Assembly (NCBI RefSeq): GCF_010500615.1 | Contig: NZ_JAAGNX010000003.1 | Location: 186,001-250,000, forward strand | DNA: 64,000 nucleotides | Source: Oceanipulchritudo coccoides | Lineage (GTDB): Bacteria > Verrucomicrobiota > Verrucomicrobiia > Opitutales > Oceanipulchritudinaceae | Direction: 5' to 3' | Part shown: one piece after another, positions 17,357-29,356 of the stretch | Layout of the letters: each line of letters begins with the position of its first letter | How positions within the stretch are numbered: the first letter of the stretch is position 1 | Notes under the pieces: model-generated | What the model was told of the DNA's origin: nothing | What the model saw: only the letters and a program-made list of their open reading frames with translations | Databases searched by the model: none | Translations under genes and position numbers: made by a program

Positions 17357-17743
17357 ATGCCACGGCCCAAAAGTTACTCCGCTGATGATTTTGAGGTCCG
17401 TAGATCGACAATTCCGGGCGCGGGCCTGGGGCTCTTTTCCAAGGTTCATATCGGATTGGAGGAAACGATCGGGCAATACACCGGCGAGATCATCACATGG
17501 GATGAATTGTTGGCGGGTAAGTATTCAGGATCCCACTACATCATGGCCTTGACTTCGAAGTTCCTTGTTGTGGGGGAAGGACCGAAAGCCAACTACACAC
17601 GCTACATCAACCACTCAACCTCCCCCAATGCCACCATGATCATTTCCACCCGCTGGAAATCCGCCCGCATCGAGGCTGTTGAGCCTATCTCCCCGGGCGA
17701 GGAGATCTTCTTCAACTACGGAGAGGATTATTGGTCGGCTTAA
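17357..17743 (+). CDS. small SET-domain protein (putative lysine methyltransferase)
   Basis: 128 residues, almost only a SET domain. RRSTIPGAGLGLFS (about 15-28) is the SAM-binding opening; NYTRYINHSTSPNA (about 79-92) matches the conserved R-x-x-NHS-x-xPN knot; GEEIFFNYGEDYW (about 114-126) supplies the catalytic Tyr and closes the pseudoknot. No pre-SET or post-SET zinc region. Bacterial SET proteins of this size occur in chlamydiae, Legionella and other PVC members; some modify histone-like or ribosomal proteins. It lies 27 bases after the octahaem gene, so it may be co-transcribed. The substrate is unknown. Confidence 0.88.
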   Translation: MPRPKSYSADDFEVRRSTIPGAGLGLFSKVHIGLEETIGQYTGEIITWDELLAGKYSGSHYIMALTSKFLVVGEGPKANYTRYINHSTSPNATMIISTRWKSARIEAVEPISPGEEIFFNYGEDYWSA

Positions 17744-17759
17744 TGAGTCATACTCAATG

Positions 17760-17892
17760 GAGTCGGGCCTTTCAGGCCCGGTTACGCCGCTACCGGCGCT
17801 GAAGCGCCGACTCAAAACCGCACTCAATGCACCCAATAGAGTCGGGCCTTTCAGGCCCGGTTCCGCTGCTACCGGCGCTGAAGCGCCGACTC
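17760..17892. repeat. REP array, two 54-bp copies, left of the RAYT gene
   Basis: Copies at 17760-17813 and 17839-17892, 79 bp apart (54-bp element plus 25-bp spacer). Each runs from GAGTC to GACTC and folds into two hairpins: CGGGCC-TTTCA-GGCCCG and CGGCGC-TGAA-GCGCCG. They follow the SET gene and could also end its transcript. Confidence 0.9.
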
Positions 17893-17988
17893 AGGACCAC
17901 GATGTTCCATCCTTCTTAATTACATCATCTAGTCGAATTCAGGCAATTAATCCAGTTGCTTGACCCGTCTATATGCCTGCGTTTTGAA

Positions 17989-18594
17989 ATGATGTACAAC
18001 TGGAAAAGTTATACTCTCCAGGAAAAACAACACATCTTAAAATTGCGTATGCTTAGCGGGTATCCTGCCCATGAAATTCCGCATTTTCACGATGGATGTA
18101 GCGGATATTTTTCCATTACCAGCAGTAACTATTTTCACCAAAAAATCATGGGAAGTTCATCTAAACGAATGACAGAATTTCTTGATGAATTATTCCAATG
18201 TGTTTCAGCAGTCGACTTTCAGATACACGCTTACTGCCTCCTTCCAAACCATTACCACCTTTTGGTTGAGGGAGATCGGGTTGAAAGACTTCGAAAGTCA
18301 ATTGGATTGCTGCACGGAAGGAGTTCCTACTATTGGAATGGTGAGGATAATACACGAGGGAGAAAAGTCTGGTACCGCACTTTTGACCGGCTGATCCACA
18401 CGCAGAGACACTTTTATACAACCCTGAACTATCTTCACTACAATCCTGTTAAGGACGGCTATTGCACTAAAATGACAGAGTGGCCGTGGTCTAGTGTGAA
18501 GGCATTCGTCAAGGAAGTCGGCCGAAAGAAAGCAGCCGAGATTTGGCAGGCCTACCCTCCTGCAGAAAGCCATCTAAAGGAACTATTACAATGA
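17989..18594 (+). CDS. rayT: REP-associated tyrosine transposase (RAYT)
   Basis: 201 residues from ATG 17989. Y1 (IS200/IS605-like) HUH fold: CLLPNHYHLLVEG (about 79-91) carries the His-x-His metal site, and the KSIGLLHGRSSYYWN helix (about 100-114) carries the candidate nucleophilic Tyr. A conserved LNYLHYNPVKDGYC-WPWSSVK region follows, typical of RAYTs rather than IS200. Known RAYTs bind and cut REP hairpins as single strands. Its codon use looks more AT-rich than that of the neighbours, hinting at acquisition. A TTG at 17956 could extend the N-terminus by 11 residues. Confidence 0.9.
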   Translation: MMYNWKSYTLQEKQHILKLRMLSGYPAHEIPHFHDGCSGYFSITSSNYFHQKIMGSSSKRMTEFLDELFQCVSAVDFQIHAYCLLPNHYHLLVEGDRVERLRKSIGLLHGRSSYYWNGEDNTRGRKVWYRTFDRLIHTQRHFYTTLNYLHYNPVKDGYCTKMTEWPWSSVKAFVKEVGRKKAAEIWQAYPPAESHLKELLQ

Positions 18595-18606
18595 GTCGGG
18601 GCAACG

Positions 18607-18818
18607 GAGTCGGGCCTTTCAGGCCCGGTCACCCTGCTACCGGCGCTGAAGCGCCGACTCAAAACCGCACTCAATGCACCCAATAGAGTCGGGCCTTTCA
18701 GGCCCGGTCACCCCGCTACCGGCGCTGAAGCGCCGACTCAAAAACGCACTCAATGCACCCAATAGAGTCGGGCCTTTTAGGCCCGGTTACGGAGCTACCA
18801 GCGCTGAAGCGCGGACTC
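18607..18818. repeat. REP array, three 54-bp copies, right of the RAYT gene
   Basis: Copies at 18607-18660, 18686-18739 and 18765-18818, again with 79-bp period. The third copy is the most diverged (GGCCTTTTAGGCC, and GCGGACTC instead of GCCGACTC at its end). Its last bases overlap the stop codon of the hydrogenase protease gene. Confidence 0.9.
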
Positions 18819-19284
18819 AGGGTAGCACTTCGTTTAAAGCGAGGAGCTGGCGTACCTTCTCACAAACTTGGGGAACTGACGCCTTCACAGCTGGAGACAG
18901 CTCCAGTTCCATGGGTTTGAGCTCCTCAATGGAGACAGTGACTACGGTCATTTGTGGAAGGGGTCCAGTCAGCGCGGCGGCGCCAATAAGATCCTTCAGC
19001 CCGATATCATGAGCCCCCAGGCTTGGTGGAAAGTCAGACGGAAGCCTCGGGGTGAACTCTTGTATTGTCCCGACCCGTTCCCCGTCACGGGTGGCATCGA
19101 TCAAAATGATCCGTTTGTAATCGCTGAAATAGCTGAGCAGATGAAAACCGCCCGTACCACCATCAAGCAGGTGAACATGTTCCGGCCACTCCATCTCCTC
19201 AAGGGCTCGAACCACATGCACGCCGACGCCCTCATCTCCTACAAGCAAATTTCCCACCCCGAGAATGAGGATGGGTTCAATCAT
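18817..19284 (-). CDS. hyaD: [NiFe] hydrogenase maturation endopeptidase
   Basis: 155 residues of the HyaD/HupD/HybD protease family, which clips the C-terminus of the large subunit once nickel is inserted. LILGVGNLLVGDEGVGV (about 5-21) carries the nickel-sensing Glu; LDGGTGG (about 40-46) and DIGLKDLI, with the Asp and His ligands (HDIGL), follow. Its start overlaps hyaC by eight bases. The stop codon TGA (18817-18819) lies at the edge of a REP copy, so the insertion may have set the present C-terminus. Confidence 0.94.
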   Translation of the reverse strand: MIEPILILGVGNLLVGDEGVGVHVVRALEEMEWPEHVHLLDGGTGGFHLLSYFSDYKRIILIDATRDGERVGTIQEFTPRLPSDFPPSLGAHDIGLKDLIGAAALTGPLPQMTVVTVSIEELKPMELELSPAVKASVPQVCEKVRQLLALNEVLP

Positions 19285-29203: not shown

Positions 29204-29261
29204 GCGACACTATATAAAAGGGTTCAGGCCGGCCTAATCGAGCAAAAAGCCTTCCTTCTGA

Positions 29262-29356
29262 ACCGGCGCTGAAGCGCCGACTCAAGGTGCCGCTGGAGCG
29301 CCGACTCATGGTGCTGCAAGGGCGTCGACTCATTGTCCCGCTGGGGCGTTGACTCA
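29262..29356. repeat. 24-bp tandem repeats beginning with a half REP
   Basis: ACCGGCGCTGAAGCGCCGAC (29262-29281) is identical to the right half of the 54-bp REP near the RAYT gene. After it GACTCA recurs exactly every 24 bases (29279, 29303, 29327, 29351) with decaying copies of the GCGCC part between. It lies between hypE and the end of cfa. On the minus strand it keeps a spurious 109-codon frame open. Confidence 0.75.

Follow-up and report, generated by a model that had tools for sequence, protein, structure and literature searches.

A probable REPtron in Oceanipulchritudo coccoides with local tandem growth of REPIN-like units around its RAYT gene

In Escherichia coli, BIMEs are mosaics assembled from a small set of common modules. 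One third of RAYTs (REP-associated tyrosine transposases) are directly associated with BIMEs, which in E. coli are positioned on both sides of the gene (Nunvar and colleagues, PMC2817692). The genome of Pseudomonas fluorescens SBW25 contains tandem clusters of REPINs that include flanking DNA, and one such cluster is located beside each of its RAYTs (Bertels and Rainey 2011, PMC3116915). In the REPtrons Ma and Mb of Marinomonas, the REPs are multiplied near the gene, which has been interpreted as recent arrival and local multiplication (PMC8266576). REPs with a GTAG tag have been described in Opitutus terrae and other PVC bacteria (Di Nocera 2013, PMC3733652).

The 64,000-nucleotide stretch of the O. 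coccoides genome that was analysed, hereafter the window, contains a locus that is very probably a REPtron, that is, a single RAYT gene together with the REPs cognate to it, in which dispersal of REPINs was followed by their local tandem duplication. Five 54-bp units with two hairpins each are located on the plus strand around the gene. Units L1 (17760-17813) and L2 (17839-17892) are to the left of it, and R1 (18607-18660), R2 (18686-18739), and R3 (18765-18818), the most diverged of the five, are to the right, starting exactly where a sequence-only reading of the locus had placed them. In L1, the inverted REPs GAGTCGGGCCTTTCAGGCCCGGT and inverted GAGTCGGCGCTTCAGCGCCGGT are connected by the 9-bp linker TACGCCGCT. 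Read from both ends, each unit appears to be an inverted pair of REPs with a 9-bp join, which is how REPIN and BIME units are built. Both hairpins, which such a pair of inverted REPs should be able to form, are predicted in all five units when folded as single-stranded DNA, with minimum free energies of -13.8 to -16.4 kcal/mol and, for every unit, a predicted z-score of about -3 relative to shuffled sequences. The units of the locus have the loop TTTCA, which is TTTTA in the last one, and the other copies in the genome have the four-base loops TTCA or TTTA. Outside the RAYT locus, the five-base loop is found in at most one weak half-element, at position 519801 of contig C1.

The RAYT gene (17992-18594, plus strand) encodes a protein of 200 amino acids with a full-length Y1 transposase domain (Pfam PF01797, E 2e-7). 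The protein contains the motif H87-x-H89 and Y147 within the sequence NYLHYNPV; the three residues are conserved in at least 90% of 31 sequences, and Y147 is, judging from its motif, the probable catalytic tyrosine. The HxH motif and the probable single catalytic tyrosine are those that characterize Y1 HUH transposases. The nearest curated model, NF047646, matches the protein with 75.8 bits, narrowly below its cutoff of 80, compared to 17.1 for the IS200 model. The best PDB match, and the sole credible relative with a solved structure, is E. coli TnpAREP (4er8, E 0.0012). Both comparisons place the protein nearer to RAYTs than to the transposases of IS200/IS605. As is usual for RAYTs, the gene is present in the genome in only one close copy; a second match has 19% identity (E 4e-4). 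It is bordered by REPs that are also present elsewhere in the genome. By analogy with characterized RAYTs, the protein may be active. Two properties speak against the assignment of the locus as a REPtron. One is the score of 75.8 against the cutoff of 80; two of the six homologues tested pass the cutoff, and some also score below it. The other is the tag at the 5' end of the REP, which is TGAG(T) and not the canonical GTAG of the GTAG superfamily. The repeat is nevertheless a REP by its structure and its association with a RAYT, and a variant in its tag.

Upstream of the left array is a gene encoding a SET domain (17357-17743, plus strand; Pfam PF00856, E 8e-16), the stop codon of which is 16 bp away from the array. 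The hycI gene (18817-19284, minus strand) converges on the right array. The TGA stop of RAYT (18592-18594) is located inside the REP-head-like sequence CAATGAGTCGGGG, and the last bases of R3 contribute to the TGA stop of hycI (18817-18819). Both stops are within TGAGT/ACTCA ends of REP-like sequence, so that the stop codons of adjacent genes overlap with the ends of REPs or are provided by them.

The period of the array is exactly 79 bp on each side of the gene. The 25-bp spacers between L1 and L2 (17814-17838) and between R1 and R2 (18661-18685) have the identical sequence aaaaccgcactcaatgcacccaata, and the spacer between R2 and R3 (18740-18764) differs from it by one substitution (aaaaAcgcactcaatgcacccaata); all three are on the plus strand. 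The sequence-only reading, according to which the same 25 bp separate all units, holds within each side but not across the gene, where L2 and R1 are 714 bp apart with the RAYT gene between them. Since five units with one loop variant and one spacer span both sides, the gene occupies the position of a spacer, and RAYT and the array share one history. The private loop variant shared by the five units indicates that they probably derive from one local founder on both sides of the gene. REPINs are known to insert beside REPINs in other genomes (PMC3116915); however, the origin of the five units by independent insertions is extremely improbable, given the exact period and the private loop variant, and this explanation was rejected because the identity of the spacers contradicts it. 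The earlier proposal that a unit of REP plus spacer was amplified in tandem is supported and fits the data best.

Copies of the REP were counted by pattern searches of the 3.52-Mb genome, and the numbers are therefore lower bounds. The first half-element, GAGTCGGGCCTTTCAGGCCCGG, has six matches with up to three mismatches, and the reversed control pattern has none, which excludes chance. The pattern of a single REP, also with up to three mismatches, has 36 matches, compared to one for the reversed control. The five half-elements of the RAYT locus with TTTCA or TTTTA loops contain an extra base that places them outside this pattern, and adding them gives a total of about 41 copies at about 15 places. 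The REP is thus present elsewhere in the genome; its absence there had been named in advance as evidence against the proposed amplification. Clear tandem arrays are present at four places: the RAYT locus, with five units and a period of 79 bp; C3:826922-827241, with four units and a period of 89 bp; C1:1187961-1188093, with two units and a period of 82 bp; and C1:519801-519976, with a period of approximately 58-59 bp. A fifth, degenerate array at 29259-29355 of the window (plus strand) consists of a lone REP of the RAYT-locus family and, after it, three decaying copies of a single hairpin at distances of about 25 bp (GCGCCGACTCA), and is apparently a second, older tandem growth of half-units.

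The arrays differ in spacer and period, with spacer lengths of 25, 31, 36, and 36-37 bp. Spacers are 0.84-1.0 identical within loci and at most 0.61 between loci, and the 25-bp spacer of the RAYT locus is found at none of the approximately 14 other REP places. The spacer therefore does not travel with the REP, a point that the sequence-only reading had raised, and each array has a private one. For the C1:1188k and C1:520k arrays, the spacer is similar to the DNA that follows the last unit, which would be expected had the unit been copied along with its right flank. In the unique sequence next to the RAYT array, the spacer of this locus has no clear counterpart, and the founder duplication is therefore not directly readable there.

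The arrays at C3:827k and C1:1188k fill gaps between converging genes, and the right array of the RAYT locus is positioned between RAYT and the converging hycI. It is conceivable, but unlikely, that the array is kept as a bidirectional terminator or mRNA end between converging genes, with RAYT as a passenger. Such a role would be compatible with local tandem growth, but insertion at these sites may simply be tolerated, and the structure of the spacers would be left unexplained. Two other arrays, at L099:2413-2752 and L100:1955-2093, occupy the entire gap between genes that converge, which suggests a preference for, or a tolerance of, shared 3' ends.

In the REPtron explanation, the REPIN-like units would have entered the lineage with RAYT or soon after. 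By analogy to E. coli and other TnpAREP proteins, RAYT would recognize the REP hairpin in single-stranded DNA, cleave and rejoin it, and so disperse REPINs to about 15 places. At several of these, the unit was then probably duplicated in tandem together with adjoining DNA, by slippage or unequal exchange. Copying a unit with its adjacent DNA would result in a spacer that is constant within an array and different between arrays. Tandem growth of this kind would need no transposase, but cleavage by RAYT may have had a part in it. Because spacers are private to their arrays and the loop variant to the RAYT locus, dispersal between places and tandem growth within a place are separate steps.

Homologues of RAYT are sporadic across the phylum, with matches at or below 1e-15 in 48 of 387 genomes. 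The nearer ones are 34-43% identical and others are more distant. A scan of named genomes with the single RAYT protein as a query, which reaches less far than an alignment would, identified only a distant Microbulbifer locus. Flanks were compared at 31 loci, namely 30 homologous RAYT loci and that of the window. A sequence is repeated between both flanks at 25 of the 31, and at least five of the 30 homologous loci (L026, L062, L063, L080, and L086) share an array of one period between their left and right flanks. At 26 of the 31 loci, a hairpin resembling a REP was recognized, its head ending in GT and its loop being of the TTCA or TTTA type. The stems of the REPs vary from genome to genome. 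The heads are GTAGT at 14 loci, and GGAGT, TGAGT, or AGAGT at 11 loci together. When mapped on the RAYT tree, the two classes of heads require three changes, compared to a mean of 8.4 and a minimum of five in 500 shuffles. The class of the head follows the RAYT tree, and the sequences thus indicate that REP and RAYT co-evolve. Homologues paired with a different repeat had been proposed as evidence against the sequence-only reading, and literally such pairings exist, since stems and heads differ; however, they do not refute it, because co-evolution of RAYT and REP predicts a different repeat.

Two further observations were made at the homologous loci. Genomes G333, G242, and G251 contain five to eight RAYT homologues each, which is unusual for a gene that is normally present once. 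The homologue at L080 has 118-bp units on both sides, in an array larger than that of the window, and about five 166-bp units to its right (L080:2097-3130; genome G207, contig C2, near 855337).

Complete direct copies of the unit lie on either side of the RAYT gene of the window, and direct copies of at least one REP border the gene at six homologous loci (L026, L063, L071, L086, L087, and L088). This arrangement would be compatible with a circle of the gene plus one unit entering an array. It is possible, but rather unlikely, that RAYT and one REPIN unit formed such a mobile cassette and integrated at a unit of an array that already existed, which would give the order U-s-U-[RAYT-U]-s-U-s-U. 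It concerns the order of events and is compatible with local tandem growth. The low G+C content of the gene (43%, compared to 54% for the window), its patchy distribution, and the multiple homologues in G242, G251, and G333 are in line with a cassette. However, no gene-free array is known to have the spacer of the RAYT locus, the same order results if an array grows around the gene through exchange and gene conversion, and a 2021 study reports no evidence of tnpAREP mobility (PMC8266576). It is rather improbable that this clade of RAYTs homes into its own tandem arrays as gene-plus-unit circles and is still mobile rather than domesticated. If it did, a shared array period to the left and right of a gene would mark past RAYT integration.

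The REPs and RAYT were also searched for in 17 genomes of the family, one per species, three of which are from the same genus. Neither a REP of the RAYT-locus kind nor a RAYT was found in the three genus mates, the assemblies of which are 84-96% complete, and one further family genome has a single weak REP match. The genes for nitroreductase and KDPG-aldolase, which are separated by a two-unit array in the studied genome, converge in genus mate G005, where their stops are no more than a few bases apart and the site is empty. In genus mate G007, the hydrogenase genes are retained, but hycI is followed by another gene, and this genome therefore provides no clean empty site with which to compare the RAYT locus. 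For the array at C3:827k, no locus with both flanking genes was found in the genus mates. The absence from the mates, the empty site in G005, and the low G+C content of the gene fit a recent arrival of RAYT and REPs by transfer. Alternatively, the pair may have been lost in the three mates.

The locus adds a clear example from beyond the proteobacterial models, which have been studied well. In it, the dispersal of REPs, recorded in their shared sequence, is separable from tandem growth, recorded in private spacers; the principle of separating the two has already been published. The small number of REPs makes an early stage of invasion readable place by place and helps to date the arrival of RAYT. 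As in SBW25, inverted doublets of REPs are repeated in tandem with flanking DNA next to a RAYT, but the genome contains about 41 REPs instead of more than 1000, belongs to another lineage, and has the head TGAGT. The flanking of RAYT by arrays of paired REPs on both sides is shared with E. coli TnpAREP (yafM), which has BIME-2 on both sides, and with REPtrons (PMC2817692, PMC8266576). Unlike in E. coli BIMEs, each array has its own spacer. REPs are concentrated near the RAYT gene as in the Marinomonas REPtrons, but most REP places are far from the gene, and local multiplication is recorded in tandem spacer copies. With the REPs of Opitutus terrae and other PVC bacteria, those described here share the form of palindromes with a short 5' tag and of dimers reiterated in tandem with flanking DNA, and they differ in the tag, which is TGAG(T) here and GGAG or GTAG at homologous loci. 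All main features of the locus have precedent in Pseudomonas, E. coli, and Marinomonas, and only the TGAG(T) tag and the sparse invasion, readable place by place, are particular to it.
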